A stretch of 18,845 nucleotides of DNA from an uncultured Lachnospiraceae bacterium (GTDB taxonomy: Bacteria; Bacillota; Clostridia; Lachnospirales; Lachnospiraceae). The notes under the pieces were generated by a model. The model ran no database searches. It had not been told where the DNA came from and saw nothing but the letters and a program-made list of their open reading frames with translations. This document shows positions 51 to 18,242 of this stretch, in pieces. The position numbers and the translations under genes were made by a program. Location of the stretch: contig CANTGP010000008.1 of NCBI GenBank assembly GCA_947653315.1, positions 1-18,845 on the forward strand, read 5' to 3'. Each line of letters starts with the position of its first letter. Positions within the stretch are counted from its first letter, which is position 1.

Positions 51-96
51 GCAACTTGTACATATACAACTTGCACAAGATGTACGTAATTGTGCA
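51..96. promoter_or_regulatory. Tandem inverted repeats upstream of the chemoreceptor promoter (putative operator)
   Basis: Two inverted repeats lie just upstream of the -35 box. The first, 51-74, is an imperfect palindrome around TTGTACATATACAA. The second pairs TGCACAA (72-78) with TTGTGCA (90-96), with 11 bp between. TTGTAC/GTACAA cores are typical of AraR-type GntR repressor boxes in Firmicutes, and two such regulators are encoded in this window. The same order of elements recurs before chvE (2162-2216). The binding protein is inferred. Confidence 0.5.
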
Positions 97-114
97 GGTT
101 TCGCAAGAAGGGCA

Positions 115-143
115 TTGACAAGGGGGGACAAATGGCATACTAT
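115..143 (+). promoter_or_regulatory. Sigma-A promoter for the chemoreceptor gene
   Basis: A consensus -35 TTGACA (115-120) is followed by a 17-bp spacer and a -10 TACTAT (138-143), placing the transcription start near 150. This leaves an untranslated leader of about 200-240 nt. A motility sigma factor (SigD) promoter might be expected for a chemoreceptor, but the hexamers and spacing fit the housekeeping sigma factor. Nothing recognisable as a gene was seen in positions 1-50. Confidence 0.6.
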
Positions 144-262
144 ATAAATAATTGTTGGGCGGAAACGCAAAAACCGGCAAACGATATAAAAAAAGAAGAA
201 AATACCAAACGGCTATTGTATAAAATATATAGTGCGATAAGGAGGAGGAAAAACAAAATATA

Positions 263-349
263 GTGCCCGAAAGAAAAATGAACAGGAAATGGTACGAACA
301 ACAGATGTGCGGAAAGCGATATAGCGTTGGAAGGAGCGTGATTCGGTAA
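263..349 (+). CDS. Possible 28-codon upstream ORF in the chemoreceptor leader
   Basis: A GTG at 263 opens a short frame ending in TAA at 347-349, and the last base of that stop overlaps an in-frame ATG (349) of the chemoreceptor. A very strong ribosome site, AAGGAGGAGG (239-248), lies 14 nt upstream of the GTG, which is longer than usual. The peptide would be highly basic (many Arg and Lys) and has no recognisable family. It may be a leader peptide that couples translation to the receptor, or chance. Confidence 0.2.
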
Positions 350-387
350 TGGGATTTGCGGGAACGGAAAAGAAAACGGGAGGGAAA

Positions 388-2094
388 ATGGAAAAGAAAA
401 AAAGCAGTTTGGGGATACGCGCCAAAATTAACAGCCTGATTTTCGGAATCGTGGTTTTACTGTCGGGAATTTTGATTTTTGCCACGAATAAATTCATGGA
501 ATACAATGCCGAATACGAACACGTGTTGGAAAATATCAGTAAGATTACATATATTAAAACCAACAGTATTAAGGTGGCGCGGACCGTGGTGAATATGTGT
601 GCGGCGGGCGGGAACGTGGCAGGCAGCGGGCATCCGGAAATCGTGGAAACCATGAAACAGTATATCGTGGACATCGGCGTCAATATCGGTGACGAGCCGG
701 AATATAACCAAAACAGGAACCAGTTGGCAAGCCTTGCCAACGAAGTGGACAAATTTGTTAAGCTGTATGAGGAGATTACCGGAATCTGCGGAGAAGATTA
801 TTCCTCGGCGGCATCGGAACAGGCGGCGCGGCTGGATGCTTCCACGTCGTTTCTGACTACCAATGCGGATAATCTGCTGACTTATGAAATCGGCAGGAGC
901 GAGGCTTTACAGGAAACGATACGCCAAAATTCCCAAAACCTGTTTTCGGCGCTGGTGGCGGTCATTGCGGTATCCATTTTCGTGGCGGTGCTGTTGGCGG
1001 TGGTGGTGTCTAAAAGCATTACAAGACCCATTAAGGAGTTGAAAAAGAAAATAACGGTGATTGCGGACGGTGATTTGTCCGGGGCGGATATTGCGGTAAA
1101 ATCAAAAGACGAAACCGGTCATCTGGCGTCGGCGTTTAATAAAATGAAGAACAATATATCCGGTATTTTGGGGCAGGTATTGGAGAGTGTGGCGGAGCTG
1201 AAGATGGCGACTTCCACGGTAAATATCAGTATCGAGGAGAATTCCAAAGGAAGCGCCCAAATAGCGGAAGCCGTGGGCGGTATGTTGTTCCGGCTGAAAA
1301 AACAGCAGGACGAGGTGTCGAAAATTGCGGAACAGATTCAGGAAATGGAGAAGGTGTCCGGCGTCATTATCGAGAATGCGGAAAAAATCCATGAAAATTC
1401 GGAGGAGACGCGCATCAATGCCGGGAACGGGATGGATAAAATCATCGCTTATACGGACCAATTAAGTATCATCAACGATTCCATACAGGAAGTGACCCAG
1501 GTGTTTACCAGATTTAATGACAATACCAAACGGATGACGGAAGCCCTGAATGCGATAACCGATATTGCGGTCCAAACAAACCTGTTGTCCCTGAACGCAT
1601 CCATTGAAGCCGCAAGGGCAGGAGAAGCGGGAAGGGGGTTCGCCGTGGTTGCGGATGAAATCAGGAAGCTGGCGGACGATTCCCAGGGTGCGGCGAAAGA
1701 AATCGCATCCATGATCCAAAAGATACAGAACGAGTCGGAACATATGAATGATAAGCTGGAGGAAAGTCTCGGACATTTGCGGAAAGGAAATGAAATGACC
1801 GCGGAAACCCGCAGCAGTTTTGAGGTGATTAAGGACGGTACGGGAGAAGTGGGCAGAAGGGTTGCGGATATTATGGAGAAGTTGGAAACCCTGATGGAAA
1901 AGATTGAACATACGGTATCCAGCGCGGGCGAAATCCAAAATGCGGCGGATGAAAGCGTGATTGAAATCAACGAGATTAATGCCGTCGTGACGGAGGAAAG
2001 CGCCAACCTGGAATCCGTTTCCGGCGCTGCCGGAAAACTGCTTGGCCTGACCGGCAGACTGGAGGATATGGTGGGGGAATTTAAACTGGATTAG
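388..2094 (+). CDS. Methyl-accepting chemotaxis protein (transmembrane chemoreceptor)
   Basis: This membrane receptor would control the CheA/CheW kinase array in response to an extracellular ligand. From the ATG at 388 (568 aa), TM1 is about residues 17-34, an extracellular mostly helical region of about 150 aa follows, TM2 is about 185-207, and a HAMP domain starting [12 protein letters not shown] runs to about 260. The long cytoplasmic coiled coil carries the conserved hairpin tip, seen as [20 protein letters not shown] and [15 protein letters not shown] (about 394-428). The compact extracellular domain suits a four-helix-bundle sensor that might read a sugar-loaded binding protein, but that is inference. 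The start is uncertain: GGGAGGG (378-384) sits very close to this ATG, while an in-frame ATG at 349 has AAGGAG (331-336) 12 nt upstream and overlaps the stop of a short upstream ORF. Its promoter resembles that of the downstream sugar transporter, suggesting co-regulation. Confidence 0.93.
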
Positions 2095-2161
2095 AGTCTG
2101 TATGAAAATTGCTTTTTCGGATGCGTTCCGGAAAAACAAACAATAGAAAGAAGATTTTATG

Positions 2162-2201
2162 CAATATGCGGAAGTTGTACATGTACAACTTCCGCATATT
2201 G
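2162..2201. repeat. Perfect 40-bp palindrome between the chemoreceptor and chvE (operator and/or terminator)
   Basis: Positions 2162-2181 are the exact reverse complement of 2182-2201. The centre is GTTGTACATGTACAAC, an AraR-box-like core, and the outer arms are CAATATGCGGAA and its complement. As RNA it would fold into a stem of up to about 18 bp with a tiny loop, followed by the moderately T-rich TTGTATTTAATTTG. It could therefore end chemoreceptor transcription and also serve as a high-affinity operator upstream of the chvE promoter at 2236. Confidence 0.85.
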
Positions 2202-2235
2202 TATTTAATTTGTGCAAAAATTATAGAATTACATA

Positions 2236-2264
2236 TTGACAAAACGTATAATCTGTCATAATAT
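2236..2264 (+). promoter_or_regulatory. Strong sigma-A promoter for the chvE-gguA-gguB operon
   Basis: Consensus -35 TTGACA (2236-2241), a 17-bp spacer, then -10 TAATAT (2259-2264). Transcription should start near 2271, giving a leader of about 195 nt before the chvE start. A TTGTGCA motif (2210-2216) lies 19 bp upstream of the -35, matching the placement of the same motif (90-96) before the chemoreceptor promoter. Confidence 0.7.
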
Positions 2265-2270
2265 ATAACC

Positions 2271-2465
2271 AATATAGTTGCGAGAAACTAGAAAACAAGC
2301 CAATGCATCTTTAAAATGAAAAAATAACAGGTAAAAACATACAAAATACACAATGCGTCTTAGGGCGCGGATGGCGGATGGCCGTTTTGCTTTTTGTACA
2401 ATACCGTACAACCGTGCGGTTTGTAAATACAAGTTATTCAATACATGATTAAGGGAGGAAAATGT
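2271..2465 (+). promoter_or_regulatory. Long chvE leader with a downstream inverted repeat
   Basis: This untranslated stretch contains TTGTAC (2394-2399) and GTACAA (2406-2411) as an inverted repeat with a 6-bp spacer, overlapped by ACCGTGCGGT (2413-2422, directly after an earlier ACCGTAC). A weak stem around GGCGGATGGCC (2373-2383) is followed by TTTTGCTTTTTG. An operator here, about 125 nt into the transcript, could act as a roadblock. No known riboswitch class was recognised. A good ribosome site, GGGAGG (2453-2458), lies 7 nt before the chvE ATG. Confidence 0.35.
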
Positions 2466-3728: not shown

Positions 3729-5288
3729 ATGTCTGATTATATTTTGGAAATGAATCACATAACGAAAGCGTTCTCCGGCGTCAAGGCTTTGGATGATGTG
3801 AATCTCAAAGTAAAACGCGGGGAAATCCATGCGTTATGCGGGGAAAACGGGGCAGGTAAATCCACCCTCATGAATGTTTTGTCGGGCGTTTACCCTTTCG
3901 GAAGTTATGACGGGGATATTGTATACGGCGGCAAAGTCTGCAAATTCCATAACATAAAGGAGAGCGAAGCGAAGGGCATCGTAATCATTCATCAGGAGCT
4001 CGCCTTAAGTCCGTATCTTTCTGTTGCGGAGAACGTATTTCTTGGGAATGAACAAACTTCGATGCGCGGGGTGATTAACTGGACGGAAACGAGGAAAAAA
4101 GCGCATGAAATGCTGGAGAAGGTAGGTTTGGGCGACGAAAACGTAAACGTTCCGGTAGGAAGTTTGGGAGTGGGGAAACAGCAGTTAATTGAAATTGCAA
4201 AGGCTATGGCAAAGAAAGTGGAACTGCTTATTTTGGATGAGCCTACGGCGGCGCTGAACGACGAGGAAAGTGCCCAGCTTTTGGAAATTATGCTGGATTT
4301 GAAGAAACAGGGGATTACGAGCATCATTATTTCACATAAGCTGAACGAAATCAGTTATGTAGCGGATTCCATTACCGTAATCCGTGACGGACATACCATC
4401 GAAACATTGGAAAAAGGAAAGGACGACTTTTCCGAGGACCGGATTATCAAGGGAATGGTAGGGCGGGAGCTTACCAACCGCTACCCGGTCAGGGAAGGCA
4501 TTAAGATAGGGAAGACCATTTTTGAAGTAAAGAACTGGAATGTGTTCCATCCGGATGACGGCGAACGGCAGATGATTAAGAATGTAAACCTTCAGGTGAG
4601 GGCGGGCGAAGTGGTCGGGCTTGCCGGACTGATGGGGGCCGGAAGGACCGAGCTTGCCATGAGTATCTTTGGAAGATCTTACGGGCAGAAAATTTCCGGC
4701 AGTCTCTTTATCAACGGAAAAGAGGTACATATTAAAAACGTAAGGGACGCCATTGACAACAAACTGGCGTACGTATCCGAAGACCGTAAGAATTACGGGT
4801 TGGTGCTGATTGACGATATCAAGAGGAACATGACGATGGCGGCGCTTCGGAATTTCTTTTCCAAAAACGGCGTGGTCAACAGCAACGACGAAATCGTCGC
4901 GGCGGAGGAATATAAGAAAAGGATTAATGTGAAGGCGAATTCCATCAACCAGACGGTAGGGTCGCTTTCCGGCGGGAACCAGCAGAAAGTGGTATTGGCG
5001 AAATGGATGCTGACACAACCGGACGTACTGATCCTGGATGAGCCTACGCGTGGTATTGACGTAGGTGCGAAGTATGAAATCTATTGTGTAATTAACGAAC
5101 TTGCGAAAGCCGGTAAGGCAGTGGTCGTCATTTCTTCCGAAATGCCTGAGATCATCGGTACCTGCGACAGGGTATACATCATTAACGAGGGCGAAATCGC
5201 CGGGGAACTGGGCAAAGAGGAAGTGACACAGGAAAGGATTATGCAATGTATTATGGCTCATAACAGAAAGGATGGTAAACATGAATAA
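3729..5288 (+). CDS. gguA: Multiple-monosaccharide ABC transporter ATP-binding protein (GguA, tandem ATPase)
   Basis: This cytoplasmic subunit powers sugar import and carries two fused ABC domains, as in MglA, RbsA and XylG. Taking ATG 3729 (519 aa), domain 1 has Walker [10 protein letters not shown] (38-46), Walker [13 protein letters not shown] (166-177) and a degenerate signature SLGVGKQQ. Domain 2 has a non-canonical Walker [10 protein letters not shown] (300-308), a proper signature LSGGNQQK (413-420) and Walker [12 protein letters not shown] (434-444). This asymmetry is normal for the family and leaves one fully canonical ATP site. AAAGGAAG (3713-3720) favours the start at 3729; another ATG lies two codons earlier (3723). 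The frame stays open further upstream, but those residues overlap the chvE terminator and are unlikely to be translated. The gene overlaps gguB by 8 bp (ATGAATAA), so the two are probably translationally coupled. Confidence 0.94.
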
Positions 5289-6453
5289 GAAGAAAGTAGT
5301 GAATCTCGACATGAAACAGTACGGTATGTTTCTTGCCCTTATTGCAATTTACGTGGTTTTTGCTATAATGACAGGAGGGAAGAATTTATCTCCCGCCAAT
5401 ATCAACAACCTGATCATGCAGAACGGGTATGTGGTAATTCTTGCGGTAGGTATGCTGCTTTGCGTTTTAACCGGTAACGTGGACTTGGGCGTAGGTTCCG
5501 TGGTCGCCCTGACAGGCGCTACGGTAGGTATTATGCTGGTGGATTACAAGATGAACATGTGGGTTGCCATTTTGGCGGCGCTTGTCATCGGACTTTTGGT
5601 CGGTATGTTTGCGGGATTCTTTATCGCATACCTGACCATACCTCCTTTTGTGGTAACGCTGGCAACCATGTTGATGGGCCGCGGTCTTACGTATACCATG
5701 CTTCATGCACAGACCAAGGGTCCCTTTGCGGCAGACTTTGTTTACATAGGAGCAGGTTTCCTGCCCACGGTGAAGATTCCGTTTGGGGACGGTACGATGG
5801 ATTTGGTCAGCATTATCGTGGCTGCCATTGTGACGGCATTGTTAATCATTGCGGAGATGAAAAACATTGCTACAAAGAAAAAATATGATTTTCCGTTAAA
5901 TCCTATGTGGCAGGTGGTTTTGAAACTGGCGGTATTAATGTTTATCGTATGGTTCTTCTTCTACAAGCTGTCACGCTATAACGGTCTTCCGTTTGTACTT
6001 GTCATTATGGTGGTACTGGTAGGGATTTACGTATTCATTACGAGCAAGACGGTAGCCGGACGGCAGATATACGCGCTTGGCGGCAATGCGAAAGCGGCAA
6101 GGCTTTCCGGTATCGATACGAGGAAAGTATTCTTTTGGGTATATACGAATATGGGTATTTTAAGTGCGGTAGCAGGTATCGTTCTCTGTTCCCGTAACGG
6201 GTCTTCCACACCGAAGGCAGGCGACGGATTTGAAATGGATGCCATCGCTTCCTGTTATATCGGCGGTGCGGCAGTAGCCGGGGGCGCAGGTACGATTATG
6301 GGCGCGGTAGTCGGGGCATTCATCATGGGTATCCTCAACAACGGTATGTCCCTGTACGGCTGGTCCACGGATATCCAGAAAATCGTAAAAGGCGCGGTTC
6401 TTTTGGGCGCCGTAACGGTAGATATCTTATCCAAGAGAAAGAGCAGCAAATAA
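5281..6453 (+). CDS. gguB: Multiple-monosaccharide ABC transporter permease (GguB)
   Basis: This is the membrane channel of the ChvE-GguAB importer, a BPD_transp_2 family protein of 390 aa with about ten hydrophobic helices. The N-terminal half contains [18 protein letters not shown] and [16 protein letters not shown], typical of RbsC/XylH-like permeases. The loop [20 protein letters not shown] (about residues 259-278) is the usual ATPase-contact region. At 390 residues it is longer than RbsC (about 320), because of an extra charged and hydrophobic stretch around residues 195-250, which is also typical of XylH and GguB. ATG 5281 has AGAAAGGA (5265-5272) at a good distance and overlaps the end of gguA by 8 bp. 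No strong terminator follows, so transcription may run into the regulator gene at 6545. Confidence 0.93.
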
Positions 6454-6503: not shown

Positions 6504-6547
6504 AAGGAGGCGGGCAGCTTATTTTAGGCTGCCCGAAACAAATAGTG
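6504..6547 (+). promoter_or_regulatory. Ribosome site separated from its start codon by a perfect hairpin
   Basis: AAGGAGG (6504-6510) is a near-ideal ribosome site but lies 34 nt before the GTG at 6545. Between them CGGGCAGC (6511-6518) pairs perfectly with GCTGCCCG (6528-6535). When folded, only the 9 nt AAACAAATA separate the stem from GTG, restoring normal spacing. No ATG, GTG or TTG occurs between the two. An in-frame ATT (6521) with 10-nt spacing is the only nearer, non-standard alternative. Confidence 0.55.
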
Positions 6548-7639
6548 GGGAAAAATCAACCGAAATATATGGAGCTGGTCAATTGGATACGGGAACAGGT
6601 CGAAGCGGGGAAATTCCAGCCGGGACAGAAGATGTATTCGGAAAACGAATTAAAGGAAATGTTTGGTCTGAGCAGGCAGACGGTACGCCATGCCATAAGC
6701 GTACTGGAGAATGACGGTGTGCTTATCCGCAGGCAGGGCAGCGGTACCTATATTAATGACAGGCGCCAGACAAACCTTAGGAATAAGACGCGGATTTCCG
6801 TGGTGACTACCTATGTGGACGGCTATATTTTCCCCAAAACCATTCAGGGGATTGAAAATGTACTGTTTGAAAACGGGTATTCCGTGCAGATTGCGTTTAC
6901 CAATAACCAAATCGGCAGGGAAAAAACAATATTGGAAGATATTTTGAGCCGGGATGAAGTTGCGGGTGTAATTATGGAGACGGTAAAAAGCGGTATTCCG
7001 AATCCGAATCTGTCTTTGTATGGAAAATTGCAGGCAAAGGGCATCCCGGTTATTTTTATTAACAGCTATTATCCGCTGCTTCCGATTCCCCATGTATCGT
7101 TAAACGATAAGATGGCAGGGTACTGTGCGGCAAAACACCTGCTCGAACGGGGGCACCGGAAAATCGGGGGGATTTTTAAACTGGATGACGGGCAGGGACA
7201 CCAAAGGTATGCCGGATATTTGGAGGCGCTGACGGAAGCGGGCATGGAAATGGATGATTCCTGTATCCTTTGGGTGGACACGGTGGGAATGCAGAATTTG
7301 GAAGAAAGCAGGAGCCTGATTATGGGCAGGTTCCGCGGCTGTTCGGCAGTGGTATGCTACAATGACCAAATCGCCTTTGATTTGGTGGAAATACTGGCAA
7401 AGGACGGAATCCGGGTTCCGGACCAGATTTCCGTGGTCAGTATCGACGATTCCGAACTGACGGTGCTGGGCGACGTGGCGCTGACTTCCGTGCCGCATCC
7501 CATGGACAGGCTGGGAGAGAAGGCTGCGCTCAATCTGTTACAGATGATCGGGAATCCGGCGTTCGACGCCACTTATGAGTTTGATGCCTGCGTAGTGGTG
7601 AGGGATTCGGTAAAGACATTGGAACAGGAAGGACCGTAA
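6545..7639 (+). CDS. AraR-like GntR-family repressor with LacI-type sugar-binding domain
   Basis: This is a sugar-responsive DNA-binding protein of 364 aa. Residues 8-72 form a GntR winged helix-turn-helix, with YSENELKEMFGLSRQTVRHA and the wing RRQGSGTYI. Residues from about 82 to the end form a LacI/PBP type-1 fold with DGYIFPKTIQGIEN, SGIPNPNLSLYGKL and AVVCYNDQIAFDLVEIL, the architecture of Bacillus AraR. The start is GTG 6545; the paralogue at 11883-12956 begins in the same register (KYMDLAKSLREQ against KYMELVNWIREQ), which supports it. The gene lies 91 bp after gguB and 46 bp before the histidine kinase, so it may be co-transcribed with either. It probably represses the adjacent transporter by binding TTGTAC/GTACAA-type sites such as 2162-2201, and is released by a sugar. 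The inducer is unknown. Confidence 0.9.
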   Translation: MGKNQPKYMELVNWIREQVEAGKFQPGQKMYSENELKEMFGLSRQTVRHAISVLENDGVLIRRQGSGTYINDRRQTNLRNKTRISVVTTYVDGYIFPKTIQGIENVLFENGYSVQIAFTNNQIGREKTILEDILSRDEVAGVIMETVKSGIPNPNLSLYGKLQAKGIPVIFINSYYPLLPIPHVSLNDKMAGYCAAKHLLERGHRKIGGIFKLDDGQGHQRYAGYLEALTEAGMEMDDSCILWVDTVGMQNLEESRSLIMGRFRGCSAVVCYNDQIAFDLVEILAKDGIRVPDQISVVSIDDSELTVLGDVALTSVPHPMDRLGEKAALNLLQMIGNPAFDATYEFDACVVVRDSVKTLEQEGP

Positions 7640-7685: not shown

Positions 7686-9185
7686 ATGGAGGGGCAACGG
7701 GAAACCGGAAAAATTAAGTATCCCCTGCGGGTGAAAATGCTGGCGTTAGTGGTGACGGCGATGGTTCCCCTGTTGGGAATCGCCATATACCTGATTGCCG
7801 CGCTGGTGGATTACCGGAATGTTTATGACAGCATTGTCAGTAATATGACGGTGGCGAATAATTATAATTTGGATTTTAAGGATGAAATGGATGAGAGCAT
7901 TTACAAATTGGTGGTGGGATACGTATCCTTTGACAACATCCATGAGGATGTGTCGTTAAAAAACCCGTATTCCCTCATCGAAGAACTGAGGGCGGAGTTT
8001 ACGAACCTGATGGGGATTACCACGGACCGGGAGAGCCGCGTATGGCTGCAAAGTCTGCTGCGGAATATCGATACGCTGGAAGACCGGGTGGACGATATCC
8101 GCATCAACGTGGAACAGGGAGGCAGGTACGACGAAAACGTCAAGATGCTGGACAACAATATTTACATCCTGACCGAACTGATTCAGGACGATATCCAGTA
8201 TTATATTTATTACCAAACCAGAAGCATCGAACGGCTGAGCGCGCAGTTGAACAAGCAGGTCAGCTCCTTTATCATGCTCTGCATGGTGCTTGTGGCGGCT
8301 ATCGTGACTTTGGTCGTCGCCATTACGCTCCTTTTGCTGAAAAGCATTACCAATCCCCTGGAAAAACTCTGCCGCATTACGGGACAGATTTCCAACGGGG
8401 ATTTTAACGTGCGGGCGAGGATTAACACCATGGATGAAATCGGCATCCTGTCGGACAGCGTGGACAATATGACGGAAAAGCTGGAAATAATGGTGAAGCA
8501 GATTAAGGACGATGAACGGAAGATGCGCCATGCCGAGCTGCGGCTTTTGCAGGAACAGATTAATCCCCATTTCCTGTACAATACGCTGGACACCATTATA
8601 TGGCTGATTGAGGGAAATGATACGGACCGGGCGGTCAGCATGGTCGTATCGCTTTCGGAATTTTTCCGGCTGGTACTCAGCAAGGGAAAGGAATCCATTA
8701 CCATCCGGGAAGAAGAACTGCATATCCGCAGTTATTTGGAAATCCAGCAGGTGCGTTACCGGGATATTCTGGATTTTGGGATTCATATTTCCCCTGAAAT
8801 TTATGATTACCGCATCTTAAAACTGACGCTGCAGCCGTTGGTGGAAAATTCCCTCTATCACGGCATTAAGTATAAGCGCGCCAAGGGGAAAGTCACGGTA
8901 GAGGGCAGGAAGGAAGGGGACTGCATTCATTTCACGGTAGAGGATAACGGTGTGGGGATGGATGCGGCTGAACTGGAAAAACTGCGGGAGGAGATTGCCC
9001 GTCCCTGCAAGGAAACGGAAAAGGGATTCGGGCTGGCGAATGTGAACGAACGTATCCGCATGAATTTCGGTATGCAGTACGGTATGGAAATCCATTCGGT
9101 AAAAGGGGAGGGAACCCGGGTTGACATTACGATTCCCTCACAACGGCTGGAAGATCCGGCACGGGAGGAAACGGAAAATGGTTAA
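7686..9185 (+). CDS. Sensor histidine kinase, YesM/LytS type
   Basis: This is a membrane histidine kinase of 499 aa that would phosphorylate the response regulator at 10236. TM1 is about residues 19-41; an extracellular all-helical domain spans about 42-193; TM2 is about 194-218; a HAMP domain runs about 219-272. The His_kinase motif QEQINPHFLYNTLDTI places the phospho-acceptor at His295. The ATPase has its N-box QPLVENSLYHGI (383-394), G1 DNGVGM (420-425) and G2 GFGLANVNERI (447-457). The external domain looks like a small helical bundle, not the Cache domain common in YesM kinases, which suits sensing through the sugar-binding lipoprotein encoded next to it. The ATG follows GGAAGGGGGAAG closely. 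Its stop overlaps the next start by 8 bp (ATGGTTAA), giving tight coupling. The arrangement resembles the LytS of the C. beijerinckii XylFII-LytS-YesN system. Confidence 0.92.
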   Translation: MEGQRETGKIKYPLRVKMLALVVTAMVPLLGIAIYLIAALVDYRNVYDSIVSNMTVANNYNLDFKDEMDESIYKLVVGYVSFDNIHEDVSLKNPYSLIEELRAEFTNLMGITTDRESRVWLQSLLRNIDTLEDRVDDIRINVEQGGRYDENVKMLDNNIYILTELIQDDIQYYIYYQTRSIERLSAQLNKQVSSFIMLCMVLVAAIVTLVVAITLLLLKSITNPLEKLCRITGQISNGDFNVRARINTMDEIGILSDSVDNMTEKLEIMVKQIKDDERKMRHAELRLLQEQINPHFLYNTLDTIIWLIEGNDTDRAVSMVVSLSEFFRLVLSKGKESITIREEELHIRSYLEIQQVRYRDILDFGIHISPEIYDYRILKLTLQPLVENSLYHGIKYKRAKGKVTVEGRKEGDCIHFTVEDNGVGMDAAELEKLREEIARPCKETEKGFGLANVNERIRMNFGMQYGMEIHSVKGEGTRVDITIPSQRLEDPAREETENG

Positions 9186-10233
9186 AAAACGTATGAATCG
9201 GCGATTGGACAGGATAATCAGGCTGGGGAGCGCGGTATTGTGCCTGTTCCTGCTGGCTTTTACCTGCGGCTGCGGTATTTTCAGCAGCGTATCGGTGGAA
9301 GATGCAAAAGGGGATGAATACGGGGGAGAAAACGGCAATCTGGTGGTGGTGGGATTTTCCCAGATTGGCAGCGAATCCGTATGGAGGACGGCGCATACCG
9401 CGTCCATTCAGGAAGCGCTGACGAAAGAAAACGGCTATTTCCTTATTTTTGACAATGCAAGACAGAAGCAGGAGAATCAGATTAAGGCGCTGCGCAGTTT
9501 TATTTCCCAAAGGGTGGACTATATCGTATTTTCCCCCGTGACGGAAAGCGGATGGGATACGGTGCTGGCGGAGGCGAAAGAGGCGGGGATTCCCGTAATC
9601 CTTATGGACCGTATGGTGGACGTGGAGGACGATTCCCTCTATACCACCTGGATTGGGCCCGATACGGAGGAGGAAGGCAGGAAAGCCGGAAGGTGGCTGG
9701 AGGAATACCTGAAGATGGCGGGAAGGCAGAAAGAAGACATTAATATCGTGGTCCTGCAGGGAACGCTGAGTTCTTCCTCCCAGCGGGGAAGAAGCGCCGG
9801 CTTTGCGGAGATTGCCAACCGGTATGTGAACTGGCACATTTTGGGGCAGAGGAGCGGGGAGTTTACCGTGGCAAAGGGGAAAGAGGTTATGGAGCAATTC
9901 CTGGAAAAGTATCCCGATATCGATGTGGTGGTATCGCAGAACGACGATATGACGTTCGGGGCGGTGGAAGCCATAGAGGAGAGCGGAAGGAAAGTGGGAA
10001 GGGACGGCGGTATCATCATCCTGTCCTTCGATGCCGTGAAGGATGCCCTGCGCATGGTGGAAACGGGGCAGATTGCCGTGGACGTGGAATGCAACCCGGA
10101 ACAGGGCGAGTACTTGGCTGAGGTAATCGGTATACTGGAGCGGGGGGAGAAAGTGGAAAAGGCATACGTGGTGGAAGAAAAAGTGTTTACGATGGAAAAC
10201 GTGTCGAAATACATGGATGACAGGAGCTATTGA
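9178..10233 (+). CDS. YtfQ-like sugar-binding lipoprotein acting as a sensor subunit
   Basis: This is a type-1 periplasmic-binding protein of 351 aa with no permease or ATPase of its own beside it. A basic, hydrophobic N-terminus ends in LLAFTCGCG, so Cys30 or Cys32 is probably lipidated, though the lipobox is not ideal. Unlike the two transport binding proteins it has only a short linker before the fold begins at about residue 54. VVVGFSQIGSESVWRTAH, GWDTVLAEAKEAGIPVI and GRSAGFAEIANRYVNW align clearly with the transport protein at 13403-14530 and with E. coli YtfQ. Lying between a histidine kinase (8-bp overlap) and its regulator (2-bp gap), it most likely presents a bound sugar to the kinase, as XylFII does to LytS. 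ATG 9178 is chosen for GGGAGGA (9163-9169) and the lipoprotein signal; a longer frame beginning inside the kinase gene is not credible. Confidence 0.88.
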   Translation: MVKKRMNRRLDRIIRLGSAVLCLFLLAFTCGCGIFSSVSVEDAKGDEYGGENGNLVVVGFSQIGSESVWRTAHTASIQEALTKENGYFLIFDNARQKQENQIKALRSFISQRVDYIVFSPVTESGWDTVLAEAKEAGIPVILMDRMVDVEDDSLYTTWIGPDTEEEGRKAGRWLEEYLKMAGRQKEDINIVVLQGTLSSSSQRGRSAGFAEIANRYVNWHILGQRSGEFTVAKGKEVMEQFLEKYPDIDVVVSQNDDMTFGAVEAIEESGRKVGRDGGIIILSFDAVKDALRMVETGQIAVDVECNPEQGEYLAEVIGILERGEKVEKAYVVEEKVFTMENVSKYMDDRSY

Positions 10234-10235
10234 AC

Positions 10236-11852
10236 ATGCTGAAAGTATTTTTGGTGGAAGACGAAAGCGTGGTAAGGGAAGGACTGCGGGACAATATTGC
10301 GTGGCAGCAGTACGGGTACCAGTTTGCGGGGGAAGCCAGCGACGGGGAAATGGCGCTGCCGCTGATCCGTAAGCTGCGCCCCGATGTGCTGATTACGGAT
10401 ATTAAGATGCCGTTCATGGACGGGCTGGCGCTGAGCCGTATGGTCAGCCAGGAATTTCCGCAGACAAAAATCGTCATTATCAGCGGGTACGATGATTTTG
10501 AGTATGCCCGTCAGGCGATTTCCGTCGGTGTGGAGCAATACCTCTTAAAACCGGTGACAAGGATGAACCTGCAGAAAGTGCTGCAGGAAATCCGGGGGAA
10601 GATTGAGAGTGAACGGGAACAGGAAAACTATATCGAAAAGTTCCGGAAGGAAATGCAGGAATACGAGCAGTTTTCCCGCCGGAATTTTTTTGAAAAGCTG
10701 TTCGGCGGTCATTTGGCGGTACAGGAAATATATGAAGAAGCGCAGAAATTGTCATTGGAGCTGGATGCTGCCTGCTATAACCTTGCCATGGTGAGCCTTT
10801 GGGAGAAAAAAAACCCGGAAGGAGGGGGGAAAGACCTTGGGCTGGCGGAGCGGAAACAGGAGGAATTGATGCATTATTTCATGCGTTATCCCGAATATCT
10901 CGTTTTCCGCTGGAATATTACTACCTACGGCATTTTGATGAAGGGCGAGATGCAGCAGATGGAGGAGCTGAAAAACAGGTGCGTGAACAATATCAGCCGT
11001 ATCTGCAATGAGCCGGATGTGGAGTGGTATCTTGCGGTGGGCGATCCGGTGGAGCGTGTCAGCCTCCTGCCCGAATGTTATAACAGGGTCAACCATACGC
11101 TTTCTTACCGTTTTTTAAAGCCGAGGGAACATGTACTGGCGTACCGCGGGGCGGAGAACGATAACCACGGACAGGAAGAAGGAGGACTGGGCGGCGTGGA
11201 CATTGCCAAAACGGACCCGGAAATCATTAAGGGATTCCTGATGCGGGGGCAACAGGATGAGCTGGAAGACTTTGTGGACAGTTACCTGGAGAGCCAAAAG
11301 GACGCGCTCCGCTCCAAACTGTTCCGCGATTACCTGATGCTCAGTATCCGTTTTACGGCCATTGCTTATGCGGAATCGCTTGGTTTTACCCAGGATGAGC
11401 TTTTGGGGAACGCATGGACGGATAAGGTGCAGAATTTAAGCCTGGACGGGAAGGACATGAAACCTTACATGATGAGTCTTCTCGGAAAGGCCATTGAGCT
11501 GGGCAGCCGGGAAAGGGACAGCCAGGGGAAGAAAATCATCCAAAAGGCGCTGGATTACATTGAGGAAAATTTTGCGCAGGAAGCCCTTTCCTTAAATGCG
11601 GCGGCGCAGGCGGCAAATGTCAGCGCCAACTATTTAAGCGCCCTGTTCAGTCAGGAAAAGAAGACCACGTTTACCGAATATGTGACGCAGAAACGGATGG
11701 AGGCGGCGAAAAAGCTGCTGCGGGGGACGGAAAAGCATTCCGGCGAAATCGCGGCGGAAGTAGGATTTAAGGACCCCCATTATTTCAGTTTCGTGTTTAA
11801 GAAGACGCAGGGCTGCACGCCCCGCGAATACCGTACCGGTGCAAAAGGGTAA
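10236..11852 (+). CDS. Response regulator, YesN type (receiver plus AraC DNA-binding domain)
   Basis: This cytoplasmic transcription factor of 538 aa should be activated by the kinase at 7686. The receiver domain (about 1-120) has the acidic pair Glu8/Asp9, phospho-acceptor Asp55 in ITDIKMP, Ser83 in IISGYDD and Lys105 in LLKP, so it looks functional. A poorly conserved middle region (about 125-430) follows, then an AraC-type double helix-turn-helix near 435-535, including ALSLNAAAQAANVSANYLS and IAAEVGFKDPHYFSFVFKK. The start is ATG 10236, with AGGAG (10222-10226) 9 nt upstream; an alternative TTG two codons earlier overlaps the previous stop. Such regulators usually activate a nearby sugar transporter by binding direct repeats. 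The paired repeats at 13245-13289 upstream of the ytfQ-type operon are a candidate target. It is convergent with the repressor at 11883, only 30 bp away. Confidence 0.93.
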   Translation: MLKVFLVEDESVVREGLRDNIAWQQYGYQFAGEASDGEMALPLIRKLRPDVLITDIKMPFMDGLALSRMVSQEFPQTKIVIISGYDDFEYARQAISVGVEQYLLKPVTRMNLQKVLQEIRGKIESEREQENYIEKFRKEMQEYEQFSRRNFFEKLFGGHLAVQEIYEEAQKLSLELDAACYNLAMVSLWEKKNPEGGGKDLGLAERKQEELMHYFMRYPEYLVFRWNITTYGILMKGEMQQMEELKNRCVNNISRICNEPDVEWYLAVGDPVERVSLLPECYNRVNHTLSYRFLKPREHVLAYRGAENDNHGQEEGGLGGVDIAKTDPEIIKGFLMRGQQDELEDFVDSYLESQKDALRSKLFRDYLMLSIRFTAIAYAESLGFTQDELLGNAWTDKVQNLSLDGKDMKPYMMSLLGKAIELGSRERDSQGKKIIQKALDYIEENFAQEALSLNAAAQAANVSANYLSALFSQEKKTTFTEYVTQKRMEAAKKLLRGTEKHSGEIAAEVGFKDPHYFSFVFKKTQGCTPREYRTGAKG

Positions 11853-13244: not shown

Positions 13245-13289
13245 AACAAACTTGTATTATGAAATGAGAGAATAAAACAAACTTGTATT
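13245..13289 (+). promoter_or_regulatory. Paired 14-bp direct repeats upstream of the ytfQ-type operon
   Basis: AACAAACTTGTATT occurs at 13245-13258 and again, identical, at 13276-13289. The offset is 31 bp, close to three helical turns, so both copies face the same side of the DNA. Direct repeats in phase upstream of a promoter are the usual target of AraC-type activators such as the YesN-like regulator at 10236. The ACTTGTA core also resembles a half-site of the AraR-like boxes at 51-74. The rest of this intergenic region (13033-13244) is AT-rich with nothing else recognised. Confidence 0.5.
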
Positions 13290-13329
13290 GTCAAGCCCGA
13301 CGAACTTAAGGAAACGGAAGATTTTAACA

Positions 13330-13402: not shown

Positions 13403-14530
13403 ATGTTAAGAAAAAAATTGGCAGTATTGTTTGCAGCGGCAATGGTTGCGGCTACCGTAGCAGGATGCGGCGGCGGTGATACACCGGCAGCGGCACCGGC
13501 GGAAACGGCTCCGGCAGCGGATACGGCAGCACCGGCGGAACCTGCGCCCAAAGAAGAAGCGGCAGCGCCGGCGGAAACGGCTCCGGCAGAGGAAGCGGCG
13601 GCAGACAATGCGGCGGCGGGCGGTACCATCAGCGTAGGTTATGCCCAGGTCGGACACGAATCCGACTGGCGTACCGCAAACACGCAGAATTACCAGAATA
13701 CGTTTACGGCGGAAAACGGCTATGAATTACAGTTGGTGGACTGCGATAACGACAATGCGGCACAGTTGGAAGCAGTACGTAACTTCATCGGCCAGGAGTT
13801 GGACTATATCGTAATTGCCCCGATTGAAACCGCCGGATGGGATACCGTTCTCCAGGAAGCAAAGGATGCCGGAATCCCGGTAATCATCGCGGACCGTGAA
13901 ATCGATGCGGACGCTTCCATGTATGACGCATGGGTAGGAACCAATACCAAGAACGAAGGCGTGACGGCAGGTAACTGGCTGGCGGAATACCTGGACGGCA
14001 AAGAAGCGAACATCCTTGTCATCGAAGGTACCGTTGGCGCATCCGCCGCACTGGGACGTTCCGAAGGCTTTAACGAAGTGGCTGCTTCCCACAGCGAGTG
14101 GAAAATCCTTGATTCCCAGTCCGGTGACTTCACACAGGCAGGCGGACAGGAAGTAATGGAATCCTTCATTAAGTCTTACGAAGGACAGTTCAACGTAGTG
14201 GTATGCCAGAACGATAACGAAGCATACGGCGCAATGGATGCCATGGATGCGGCAGGCATTACCTACGGTGTGGACGGCGACGTAATCCTGATTTCCTTCG
14301 ATGCAACCCATGACGGTCTGCAGTACACGTTGGACGGAAAGATTAACTGCAACGTGGAATGTAACCCGATTCAGGCAGATGTTGTGGCATCCGTTATTCA
14401 GGCGATGAACTCCGGTTCCGCATTTGAAGCTACTACACTGGTTAACGACGAAGCGTTTGTGGCGCCCGGCATCACCAGCCAGTACGCAACGACAATGACA
14501 GAAGAAATATTGGCAGGCCGTGCATACTAA
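13403..14530 (+). CDS. ytfQ: YtfQ-type sugar ABC transporter substrate-binding lipoprotein
   Basis: This extracytoplasmic receptor (375 aa) serves the importer encoded by the next three genes. The lipoprotein signal ends in TVAGC (Cys22), and a very low-complexity linker of about 50 residues rich in Ala, Pro, Glu and Thr follows to about residue 73. The type-1 periplasmic-binding fold has VGYAQVGHESDWRTANTQN, YIVIAPIETAGWDTVLQEAK, IEGTVGASAALGRSEGFNEV and SQSGDFTQAGGQEVMESFIK, close to E. coli YtfQ, which binds galactofuranose. Related Firmicute and Bifidobacterium proteins may take fructose or arabinose, so the ligand is not settled. It is paralogous to the sensor protein at 9178-10233. Two identical 22-bp tracts in the linker DNA (13496-13517 and 13568-13589) show how the linker may have grown by repeat expansion. 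It is followed by a hairpin that probably raises its expression over the downstream genes. Confidence 0.9.
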   Translation: MLRKKLAVLFAAAMVAATVAGCGGGDTPAAAPAETAPAADTAAPAEPAPKEEAAAPAETAPAEEAAADNAAAGGTISVGYAQVGHESDWRTANTQNYQNTFTAENGYELQLVDCDNDNAAQLEAVRNFIGQELDYIVIAPIETAGWDTVLQEAKDAGIPVIIADREIDADASMYDAWVGTNTKNEGVTAGNWLAEYLDGKEANILVIEGTVGASAALGRSEGFNEVAASHSEWKILDSQSGDFTQAGGQEVMESFIKSYEGQFNVVVCQNDNEAYGAMDAMDAAGITYGVDGDVILISFDATHDGLQYTLDGKINCNVECNPIQADVVASVIQAMNSGSAFEATTLVNDEAFVAPGITSQYATTMTEEILAGRAY

Positions 14531-14547
14531 TATTGGACAGAAGGTAT

Positions 14548-14586
14548 GGGAGGGATTCCTGGAATGCGGGTTCCCTCCCTGCTTTT
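14548..14586 (+). terminator. Intra-operon terminator/attenuator after ytfQ
   Basis: GGGAGGGA (14548-14555) pairs perfectly with TCCCTCCC (14572-14579), followed by TGCTTTTT. The loop is 16 nt. The position, between the binding-protein gene and the ATPase gene, and the likely partial read-through match the hairpin after chvE (3656-3692). Confidence 0.75.
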
Positions 14587-14618
14587 TCAGAAAATAGTGA
14601 GAATGGAGGAGGTCAAGG

Positions 14619-16142
14619 ATGGAGAAAAATATCGTTTTAACGATGCGGGGGATATGCATGACTTTCCCCGGGGTAAAGGCCCTGGACAATGTGGATTTTA
14701 CGTTGCGCAAGGGGGAAATCCGGGCGCTGATGGGGGAAAACGGGGCTGGTAAGTCCACCCTGATCAAATGCCTGACGGGGGTAAACAAGTTTGAAGCCGG
14801 GGAAATCCATGTGGACGGTATTGAGGGTCCCATTGTCAATAAGGATACCTTGGATGCCCAGAAAAAGGGAATTTCCACGGTATATCAGGAAGTAAACTTA
14901 TGCCCGAACCTGTCCGTTGCGGAAAACCTGTATATCGGACGGGAGCCTTTGACAAAAATCGGAACGGTCAACCGCCGTAAAATGAATGAAATGGCGGCAC
15001 AGTTGATGCGTGATTTGGATTTGGACATAGAAGTAACACAGAATTTGGAAAATTATTCACTGGCATTGCAGCAGATGATTGCGATAGCCCGTGCTGTCGA
15101 TATGAAAAGCAAGGTTTTGATTTTGGATGAGCCCACGTCTTCCCTGGACGACCACGAAGTAAGCCTTTTGTTTAAAATGATGCGCAGGCTGCGGGAGCAG
15201 GGAGTAGGCATCGTGTTCGTTACCCACTTTTTGGAACAGGTATACGAGGTGTGCGACGGTATTACCGTACTGCGTAACGGGACGCTGGTAGGGGAATATA
15301 CGGTAGAGGAACTGCCCCGGGTGAAACTGGTGGCGGCCATGATGGGCAAGGATTTTGACGATTTGGCATCCATTAAGCCGGAGGGCGAGAAGGACATGTC
15401 CCATGCGCCTTTGGAAATCGAAGCAAAAGGATTGGGCCATGCGGGCAAGATTAAGCCCTTTAACTTGGATATCCACAAAGGGGAAGTGGTGGGGCTGACC
15501 GGGCTTCTCGGAAGCGGAAGAAGCGAACTCGCCCGCGTCATTTACGGGGCTGACCGGGCACAGAGCGGAACCCTTAAAGTGGACGGGAAAGAAGTGAACA
15601 TTAAGAGTCCGCTGGATGCCATGAACCTGGGTATGGGTCTTCTTCCCGACGACCGGAAGGCGGAAGGCATCATCGGGGACCTGTCGGTGCGTGAGAACAT
15701 TATTCTTGCCATGCAGGCGAAGCTGGGAATCTTCAAACGCATCCCCATGGCGAAACAAATCGAAATTGCGGACCAATACATAGAAATGCTGAGCATCAAG
15801 ACGGCAACCAGGGAAACGTTAATCAAACAGCTTTCCGGCGGTAACCAGCAGAAAGTCATTTTGGCGAGGTGGCTGGCGACCAATCCGGACTTCCTCGTAC
15901 TGGATGAACCGACGAGGGGAATTGACATCGGAACGAAAACGGAAATCCAAAAGCTGGTCATTAAGCTGGCGGACGAGGGCAAGAGCCTGATTTTCATTTC
16001 CTCCGAAGTGGAGGAGATGCTCCGTACCTGCAACCGTTTGGCGGTGCTGCGCGACGGTGAAAAAGTAGGGGAGCTGAATGCGGACGAAATGTCGCAGGAA
16101 GGTGTCATGAAAGCAATAGCGGGAGGTGGAGCGAATGGGTAA
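14619..16142 (+). CDS. ytfR: YtfR-type sugar ABC transporter ATP-binding protein (tandem ATPase)
   Basis: This cytoplasmic ATPase (507 aa) has two fused ABC domains. Domain 1: Walker [10 protein letters not shown] (39-47), degenerate signature YSLALQQM (146-153), Walker B LILDEPTSSLD (167-177) and H-loop His203 in VTHFLEQ. Domain 2: non-canonical Walker A GLLGSGRSE (295-303), signature LSGGNQQK (405-412) and Walker [12 protein letters not shown] (426-436). This pattern, with one composite canonical site, is normal for the sugar CUT2 family. The start ATG 14619 follows GGAGGAGG (14605-14612) at 6 nt. The gene ends with ATGGGTAA, overlapping the permease start by 8 bp. Sequence and neighbours (two different permeases follow) point to the Ytf/Yjf type, not Rbs or Mgl, which have one permease gene. 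Confidence 0.92.
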   Translation: MEKNIVLTMRGICMTFPGVKALDNVDFTLRKGEIRALMGENGAGKSTLIKCLTGVNKFEAGEIHVDGIEGPIVNKDTLDAQKKGISTVYQEVNLCPNLSVAENLYIGREPLTKIGTVNRRKMNEMAAQLMRDLDLDIEVTQNLENYSLALQQMIAIARAVDMKSKVLILDEPTSSLDDHEVSLLFKMMRRLREQGVGIVFVTHFLEQVYEVCDGITVLRNGTLVGEYTVEELPRVKLVAAMMGKDFDDLASIKPEGEKDMSHAPLEIEAKGLGHAGKIKPFNLDIHKGEVVGLTGLLGSGRSELARVIYGADRAQSGTLKVDGKEVNIKSPLDAMNLGMGLLPDDRKAEGIIGDLSVRENIILAMQAKLGIFKRIPMAKQIEIADQYIEMLSIKTATRETLIKQLSGGNQQKVILARWLATNPDFLVLDEPTRGIDIGTKTEIQKLVIKLADEGKSLIFISSEVEEMLRTCNRLAVLRDGEKVGELNADEMSQEGVMKAIAGGGANG

Positions 16143-17214
16143 GTTAAAGGACATTACGAAGAAAAGATTGTTTTTGCCGATTTTCAGTATGATTCTCGTA
16201 ATACTGATTAATGTGGTTTATGATATTGCCAGCGGGAATCCGCCGTTTTCCTTTTTCAGTATCACCATCCGTCCGATTACGGGCGGCAGCAGTGTACTGT
16301 TCGGGCGTCTCATTGATATCCTGAACAGGGGGAGTGAGGTGGCGATTCTTGCCATTGGTATGACGCTTGTGGTATCGTCTTCGGCGGGGACGGATATTTC
16401 CGTGGGTTCCGTCATGAGTCTTTCGGGCGGTCTGTGCTGTATGCTGCTGGCGGGATACGGCGTAACAAACGTATCCGAATATGCAAGCCCTCTTTGGGTG
16501 GGACTCTTGGCAGGTGTCGGCATTGCGTGCGTCTGCGGATTGTTTAACGGCTTTTTGGTGGCTTACCTGAACATACAGCCCATGGTTGCCACTTTGATTT
16601 TATGGTCGGCGGGGCGCGCCATCGGCCTGCTTTTGTGCAACAGCCAAATCGTATATGTGCGCGTACCCTCTTTCCAAATATTCGGTTCCTATGTGGGAAT
16701 CATTCCGACGCCCATCATCATCGCGGCGGTTTGCATTTTAATCGCTTCTTTGGTACTGCGTTTTACCGCCCTTGGCACGTTTATCCAGGGTGTCGGCATC
16801 AATAAAAAGGCGGCGAGGATTTCCGGTTTTAATTCCTCAAAGATAATCCTGTTAACTTATGTCATCTGCGGTCTGTGCGCAGGGATTGCGGGTTTGGTGG
16901 CAACGTCCCGTATTTATTCTGCGGATACGAATAATATCGGATTGAACATGGAGCTGGATGCCATTCTTGCGGTTGCGCTTGGCGGGAACAGCCTTGGCGG
17001 CGGTAAATTCAACCTTGCGGGTTCCATTATCGGCGCTTATACCATCCAGTCCGTAACCACCACACTGTACGCGCTGGGCGTTTCCTCCGCACAGGCGCCG
17101 GTGTTTAAGGCGATTGTCGTAATCCTGATTGTCGTAATCCAGGCGGAGCCGGTGAAAGAATACTTCAAAAAAATGTCCGCAAAGAAACTGGCAGCAAAGG
17201 AGGCGAGGTCATGA
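16135..17214 (+). CDS. ytfT: YtfT-type sugar ABC transporter permease
   Basis: This is one of two membrane subunits of the importer, a BPD_transp_2 protein of 359 aa with about eight to ten hydrophobic helices. AILAIGMTLVVSSSAGTDIS followed by VGSVMSLSGG, then LNIQPMVATLILWSAGRAIG and GVGINKKAARISGFNSSKI, are typical family landmarks. ATG 16135 is preferred over the in-frame GTG at 16126, because GGGAGG (16121-16126) would overlap the GTG but is well placed for the ATG. The start overlaps ytfR by 8 bp and the stop overlaps the next gene by 4 bp (ATGA), so the two permeases are probably made in equal amounts as a heterodimer. Confidence 0.9.
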   Translation: MGKLKDITKKRLFLPIFSMILVILINVVYDIASGNPPFSFFSITIRPITGGSSVLFGRLIDILNRGSEVAILAIGMTLVVSSSAGTDISVGSVMSLSGGLCCMLLAGYGVTNVSEYASPLWVGLLAGVGIACVCGLFNGFLVAYLNIQPMVATLILWSAGRAIGLLLCNSQIVYVRVPSFQIFGSYVGIIPTPIIIAAVCILIASLVLRFTALGTFIQGVGINKKAARISGFNSSKIILLTYVICGLCAGIAGLVATSRIYSADTNNIGLNMELDAILAVALGGNSLGGGKFNLAGSIIGAYTIQSVTTTLYALGVSSAQAPVFKAIVVILIVVIQAEPVKEYFKKMSAKKLAAKEARS

Positions 17215-18242
17215 AAAACAAAAAGCTGAAAATCAACAGTAATAACCTGTTGCTGATTATCACCGTTGTATTGTTCGTGCTGATGTACATCGGCGGATGC
17301 GTGGTGTATGCGGATAAGGGCTTTACCCGTCTGCAGACGTTCCTGTTTATTTTAATTGACAATGCGGGACTGATTTGTCTTGCCAGCGGCATGACCTGCG
17401 TCATGCTGACGGGCGGTATCGATATTTCCGTGGGCAGTGTGGTCGCCATGGACTGTATGATTATCGCCGTGGGAATCGAACGCTGGGGCTGGGGCAGTCC
17501 GGCGCTGATGCTGTTGGTTTTGGTGGTAGGTCTTGTGTTCGGTTTGGTGCAGGGATGGCTGATTGCCTACTTAAAGATACAGCCCTTTATCGTAACAATG
17601 GCAGGAATGTTCTTTGCCAGGGGTATGACGGCGGTCATTTGTACCGAGCAGGTGAGCATCACCAGCGACCCGTTCTTTACGAAACTGTCCGGTTTTAAAA
17701 TCGAAATGCCTTTCGGGATTGGCGCATACGTGAACAAAAAGGGGATTCCCCAGATTCCGTATGTCAGGGTTTCGGTGATTGTGGCATTATTGGTAGTTCT
17801 GGCAGTGTTCCTGATGCTCCGCTATACGCGGTTCGGACGCAGTATCTACGCGGTAGGCGGCAACCAGCAGTCGGCGACGCTGATGGGACTGGACGTGAAA
17901 AAAGTAACGTTAAAGGCATATGTACTGTCCAGTTTCCTGGCATCCATCGGAGGCATCTGTTATTGCCTTAACACCATGTCGGGAACGACCACACAGGCAA
18001 CCGGGCTGGAAATGAGCGCCATATCATCGGCGGTCATCGGCGGTACCCTGTTGACCGGCGGTGTGGGAAATGTCGCGGGGTCGCTGTTCGGCGTATTGAT
18101 TAACGGTACGATTTCCAAACTGGTACAGACCCACGGACAGCTCATCGGCGCCTGGGCGAATATCGTGACGGCGGTATTGCTGTGCTTCTTTATCGTGTTG
18201 CAGGCGGTGTTTGTGAAGGTGAAGGAGCGGAAGAAGGCTTAA
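17211..18242 (+). CDS. yjfF: YjfF-type sugar ABC transporter permease
   Basis: This is the second, non-identical permease (343 aa) of the importer. LICLASGMTCVMLTGGIDIS then VGSVVAMDCM, YLKIQPFIVTMAGMFFARGM, and RFGRSIYAVGGNQQSATLMG match YjfF-like proteins. It is predicted to pair with the YtfT-type protein and to be driven by the tandem ATPase. The start ATG 17211 overlaps the previous stop by 4 bp and has GGAGG (17198-17202) upstream. It is the last gene of the operon. No simple terminator follows; the next structure is the very long inverted repeat beginning at 18269. Confidence 0.91.
   Translation: MKNKKLKINSNNLLLIITVVLFVLMYIGGCVVYADKGFTRLQTFLFILIDNAGLICLASGMTCVMLTGGIDISVGSVVAMDCMIIAVGIERWGWGSPALMLLVLVVGLVFGLVQGWLIAYLKIQPFIVTMAGMFFARGMTAVICTEQVSITSDPFFTKLSGFKIEMPFGIGAYVNKKGIPQIPYVRVSVIVALLVVLAVFLMLRYTRFGRSIYAVGGNQQSATLMGLDVKKVTLKAYVLSSFLASIGGICYCLNTMSGTTTQATGLEMSAISSAVIGGTLLTGGVGNVAGSLFGVLINGTISKLVQTHGQLIGAWANIVTAVLLCFFIVLQAVFVKVKERKKA

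Follow-up and report, generated by a model that had tools for sequence, protein, structure and literature searches.

Regulons of the AraR type are the closest described systems for the locus analysed here. AraR is a repressor (PMC4218819; PMC8579813). The consensus given for Bacillus subtilis in PMC4218819 is At(T/A)tGTaCGTAcaa(A/T)T, of which TTGTACGTACAA is the core, and the account in that paper is one of cooperative, in-phase boxes and repression from paired sites. In the AraR-DNA crystals described in PMC4333415, the half-sites are 6 or 8 nt apart. The grouping of chemoreceptors with a sugar pathway is also already known, from the mcpNag entry in PMC2996990.

Organization of the locus

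The window, i.e. the whole stretch of 18 845 nucleotides that was analysed, contains the following features relevant to a comparison with these systems.

53..72, + strand: putative chemoreceptor operator AACTTGTACATATACAACTT, one mismatch to AAGTTGTA-N4-TACAACTT; the -35 is 42 bp on
80..85, + strand: putative third half-site ATGTAC of the chemoreceptor promoter (the earlier GTA-nn-TAA stretch), in register with the family-wide ATGTACA
90..96, + strand: TTGTGCA, possible fourth half-site of the chemoreceptor promoter, missing from the two other receptor promoters
115..143, + strand: chemoreceptor promoter TTGACA-17-TACTAT, second hexamer at 138-143
388..2094, + strand: chemoreceptor (methyl-accepting chemotaxis) gene, open frame from 349
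2162..2201, no strand assigned: perfect 40-bp dyad enclosing the transporter operator, a terminator-like hairpin behind the chemoreceptor gene
2172..2191, + strand: putative transporter operator AAGTTGTACATGTACAACTT; the -35 is 44 bp on
2199..2204, + strand: putative third half-site TTGTAT of the transporter promoter
2210..2216, + strand: TTGTGCA of the transporter promoter, retained in four aligned transporter promoters of the genus
2236..2264, + strand: transporter promoter TTGACA-17-TAATAT, second hexamer at 2259-2264
2394..2411, + strand: leader element TTGTA-N8-TACAA of the transporter
2421..2432, + strand: AraR-like leader box TTGTAAATACAA
2466..3641, + strand: ChvE-type sugar-binding lipoprotein gene, start 2466 chosen by inspection
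3729..6453, + strand: GguA and GguB transporter genes, completing a ChvE-GguA-GguB sugar ABC transporter
6545..7639, + strand: gene of the AraR-like GntR-LacI regulator that may bind both operators
7686-11852: histidine kinase, sugar-binding protein and AraC-type response regulator (10230) in a row
11883, opposite strand: second GntR-LacI regulator
13403-18242: second sugar transporter

The preliminary description had held that the chemoreceptor and transporter promoters share a single cis-regulatory module, and every element that it named in the two regions (51-143 and 2170-2264) was found in its place. The interval from the end of TTGTGCA to TTGACA is, as claimed, 18 bp on the receptor side (to 115) and 19 bp on the transporter side (to 2236). 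The palindromes are TTGTACATATACAA at 56-69 and TTGTACATGTACAA at 2175-2188. The most fitting interpretation of the shared element is an AraR-type operator, with half-sites AAGTTGTA and TACAACTT and an ATGTAC-like third half-site 7 bp further on. The receptor promoter of the window also contains two copies of CAACTT, 15 bp apart.

The start at 388 was taken for the chemoreceptor gene because it is preceded by GGGAGG, a likely ribosome-binding sequence. The sensor part of the chemoreceptor is all-helical in a predicted structure (mean pLDDT 79.1). A comparison with the PDB gave no match at E 0.001 or better, and the ligand is not readable from the structure; the weak matches are to chemoreceptor and sensor-kinase bundles, including XylFII-LytS (E 0.018). 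The trio at 7686-11852 presumably resembles the tripartite sugar sensors of the XylFII-LytS-YesN type. Ahead of the second transporter (13403), AACAAACTTGTATT occurs twice at 13245-13294, 31 bp apart; these copies are probable sites of the divergent 11883 regulator.

Rarity of the shared element

The local alignment of the two promoters scores 47. Shuffles average 18.2 (SD 3.2), and none of 5000 reaches that score. With the palindrome removed, a global alignment is still not equalled in 5000 shuffles. If both hexamers are removed as well, 125/5000 shuffles (about 0.025) do as well, and the middle part (GTA-nn-TAA and TTGTGCA) is therefore weak alone.

The genome searched is a draft of 3 241 638 bases (3.24 Mb) in 508 contigs; it is 81% complete, and more sites may therefore be missing. 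Within it, TTGTAYATRTACAA with at most one mismatch occurs only at the two promoters (one place for the reversed-pattern control), and these are also the only genomic matches to ACAACTT-N7-WTGTAY (control, none). The latter has two further matches in G438 of the same genus, and none in G432, G435 or G433. The looser TTGTAYNNRTACAA adds a third place in the genome (control, one). Its reversed control is equally frequent in several of 18 genomes, and the idea that every TTGTAYNNRTACAA is an operator was rejected: most of its other places in the genus seem fortuitous, and many are at or within reading frames.

Transporter promoters of relatives

From 187 confirmed loci, 80 ChvE-type loci were kept, 73 of them with at least 330 bases upstream; the named relatives among them are largely Lachnospiraceae. 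AAGTTGTA and TACAACTT recur ahead of the transporter. The spacer is 4 bp in one group, 5 bp in a second (L019, L021, L024, L027, L029, L031, L032, L035 and L036) and 2 bp in a third, which usually has more mismatches and includes many Lacrimispora records. In one complete Lacrimispora genome (L068), the GguA match is split into three pieces and interrupted by a gap, perhaps a broken gene.

Exact AGTTGTA-N4/5-TACAACT was found in 18 of 29 whole relative genomes, at 19 places, and the reversed control nowhere. By motif check, 16 of these places are by ChvE (one via coordinates) and two by araA; the last, L091, is at a contig end with its gene context unassigned. The stricter AGTTGTAYNNRTACAACT is present in five of 397 family genomes, the window's own included (control, one genome). 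Of its four places outside that genome, two (L083 and L084) have neither a ChvE nor an araA motif in the compared stretch.

Outside the genus, operators with 4- or 5-bp spacers lie 31-34 bp before the -35 in 23 of 24 promoters, the exception being L013 at 41 bp. For 2-bp spacers the distance is 29-34 bp in 15 of 20 rows; the other five are at 26, 26, 37, 44 and 44 bp, some of them without a good -35 or with four mismatches. The transporter promoters of the genus (window, G430, G432 and G435) have the operator 43-44 bp before the -35, about one helical turn further than outside the genus. A cobalamin riboswitch (85.2 bits) is present on the minus strand of L003 at 2284-2455 and has no relation to the operator finding.

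Chemoreceptor promoters of relatives

A chemoreceptor orthologue (E 1e-90) is present in three of 16 genus genomes: the window's own, G430 and G435. All three promoters contain TACAACTT-N7-third half-site, 42-43 bp ahead of TTGACA. A matrix was built from 22 transporter promoters of other clades, outside the genus, and comprises TACAACTT, seven free positions and a ATGTACATA-like part. It gives 26.3, 19.4 and 19.7 bits for the receptor promoters of the window, G430 and G435, respectively, and 19.7 bits for the window transporter. All 1 081 056 background positions score lower. This ranking of the three receptor promoters above background, with the rarity and shuffle results, thus supports the co-regulation of receptor and sugar transporter that had been proposed, within this genus. 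The other genus transporters score 15.4 (G430), 8.7 (G432) and 11.7 bits (G435). By the matrix, three receptor promoters outside the genus are without the element (L008, 7.3 bits; L020, 2.4 bits; L028, 0.7 bits). The transporter of L008 scores 7.6 bits, and there is no regulator in that stretch.

The preliminary description had named a lack of conservation in close relatives as its refutation, and this was not observed: the core element is kept at all three receptor orthologues. The module is not kept in every detail. Instead of the palindrome, the receptor promoters of both G430 and G435 have two ACAACTT copies in tandem, 14 bp apart. TTGTGCA is missing from both, and was rejected as a conserved receptor element.

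In G433 (L123), a promoter resembling that of the receptor, in which TTGTATGCGTACAA is 41 bp ahead of TTGACA, is located about 316 bp upstream of the regulator gene. Neither a chemoreceptor nor the ChvE transporter adjoins the AraR-like gene there, as if the intervening genes had been lost. The matrix misses this promoter (-0.2 bits); by eye, the third half-site is one base nearer.

The regulator and its likely mode of action

The protein encoded at 6545 combines a GntR winged helix (PF00392, residues 9-70) with a LacI/GalR-type domain (PF13377, 196-356). Its nearest solved relative is the sugar domain of B. subtilis AraR (3tb6, E 1.9e-50; the next is at 2.1e-22). For the winged helix alone, NagR/YvoA (7.4e-13) is nearer than AraR 4egy (1.5e-11). 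Among the 68 loci for which the available sequence suffices, 39 have both regulator and operator and 24 have neither; two have only the regulator (L054 and L075) and three only the operator (L051, L053 and L076), although tblastn finds regulator matches in L051 (two pieces) and L076. The p value of this association is only a guide, because the loci are kin. RQT[V/I]R is present in all 59 aligned regulator proteins, a set that includes both from the window and one genome twice.

Ten of the 16 genus genomes encode the regulator (E 1e-60 or better), and the ChvE transporter adjoins it in three of nine genus stretches, one of which is short. The gene directly after the regulator is araA in nine of 12 loci, a chemoreceptor in L010 (G430) and another gene in L003 and L013.

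Both promoters thus have the same rare candidate operator, nearly equally far from the -35; it is found again in relatives, and its occurrence goes with that of the AraR-like gene behind the transporter. The two promoters probably form one small AraR-type regulon, in which a single AraR-like repressor, released by a sugar, is the candidate for both operators. The 6545 protein is likely to be this regulator and is the best candidate for it. It would bind both upstream operators and also a second box in the transporter leader, repressing transcription, probably by paired binding, as AraR does in B. subtilis. Release would most likely be by L-arabinose or a closely related sugar, and receptor and uptake system would then be produced jointly. 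Since the shared rare site resembles that of an arabinose-responsive regulator, sensing of the sugar and its uptake are probably switched as one. On this view, synthesis of the chemoreceptor should be confined to conditions in which its likely sugar is present; regulator, sites and sugar are now named as testable candidates.

With the same operator and regulator, the upstream-bound protein could instead activate transcription by phased contact with RNA polymerase. This would suit an operator upstream of the -35 and the one-turn difference in distance between the genus and other relatives, and the AraR sites of Caldicellulosiruptor bescii described in PMC8579813 are instead in the leader or on the promoter. 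AraR is, however, a repressor in both PMC4218819 and PMC8579813, and the window does have a leader box; activation is therefore considered unlikely.

Binding of the receptor site, or of both sites, by another factor (the 11883 regulator or the 10230 response regulator) is improbable. The 11883 protein does share RQTVR in its recognition helix, and the left arm of the receptor site, AACTTGTA, resembles the probable 11883 repeat AACAAACTTGTATT. The operator, however, tracks the 6545-type gene across loci, and in the compared stretches of loci with 4- or 5-bp operators there is no best tblastn match to the 11883 regulator, the histidine kinase or the response regulator. Of the two regulators suggested earlier for binding tests, 6545 and 11883, the better candidate is the former, which is AraR-like and co-occurs with the operator; 11883 has its own probable repeat and its own transporter.

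Leader boxes, araA promoters and hairpins

The leader contains the AraR-consensus core TTGTA-N2-TACAA, while in both shared upstream operators the spacer is 4 bp. The box at 2421-2432 is the sole exact TTGTANNTACAA in its own genome (control, one). In G432 there are eight matches against ten for the control, and the bare core is therefore no proof elsewhere. Of 53 loci, 36 have TTGTA-N2-TACAA with at most one mismatch in the 200 bp upstream of the transporter start, where mononucleotide shuffles predict 0.8. For the form with a 5-bp spacer the figures are 17 and 1.4, some of the 17 being overlapping by-products of the 2-bp form. The distance from upstream operator to leader box is 205-268 bp in 37 promoters, with no sharp helical phase. 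A search of the window against Rfam at the gathering score gave no match, and the idea of a known RNA element in the leaders was rejected.

araA was found in all ten genus genomes searched. In each, it is preceded by GTTGT(A/C)-N13 to 15-TACAACT with a T-rich tail, 34-35 bp before TTGACA. Eight of the ten dyads fold below -8 kcal/mol and two are weak (-5.1 and -4.9). Matrix scores at araA are weak (1.6 to 16.0 bits), the top match being at the -35-linked place in seven of ten. Exact TTGTACGTACAA lies ahead of araA in L020 and L028. Behind the upstream gene in L150-L159, the araA operators form hairpins that have a T-rich tail; several of the araA leaders contain tandem TACAACT copies.

The 40-bp dyad at the transporter would form a terminator-like RNA hairpin of -32.4 kcal/mol, and such operators may double as terminators. 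That the dyad is mainly a terminator of the chemoreceptor gene, its likeness to 53-72 being chance, is very improbable and was rejected: the perfect dyad and the marginal result for the operator-to--35 part alone (125/5000) would fit, but the half-sites are conserved across clades, the element occurs at just two places, the matrix scores are high, and in L003 and L004 the pairing is kept for nine more bases on either side, with no run of T.

Extending the AraR-type regulon to all of these sites is tentative. A single lineage of regulators, its recognition helix unchanged, may recognize these half-sites in tandem as well as across spacers of 2, 4, 5 and 13-15 bp. The dyads might act both as the operator of one gene and as the terminator of the preceding one, with sensing and uptake obeying one sugar signal. 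The 3' end of the chemoreceptor transcript would then also be its neighbour's switch. Fixed half-sites with shifting spacers across relatives amount to a natural experiment on the spacing tolerance of GntR-type operators.

Comparison with known systems

No chemoreceptor within an AraR regulon was found in the open-access literature searched, although one may have been published elsewhere. Neither 'chemotaxis' nor 'MCP' occurs in the text of PMC8579813, and neither 'chemotaxis' nor 'chemoreceptor' in the texts of PMC4052901 and PMC3750489. The mcpNag gene of the Shewanella N-acetylglucosamine pathway is similar in that a receptor gene is assigned to one sugar pathway; according to the table row in PMC2996990, it differs from the system here in sugar, regulator and phylum.

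The putative regulon shares with that of B. subtilis AraR a GntR-LacI regulator, TTGTA/TACAA half-sites, paired boxes and, in relatives, araA as a putative target. It differs in including a chemoreceptor, in having the upstream box well before the -35 and the leader box about 245 bp away, and in its tandem half-sites and spacers of 5 and 13-15 bp; for these spacers, no precedent was found in the AraR literature searched. The 2- and 4-bp spacers equal the half-site gaps of 6 and 8 nt in the AraR-DNA crystals of PMC4333415. As described in PMC8579813, the axg system of C. bescii likewise places a CUT2-family monosaccharide transporter under AraR-type control; its sites are within the leader or over the promoter, in contrast to the position upstream of the -35 seen here.
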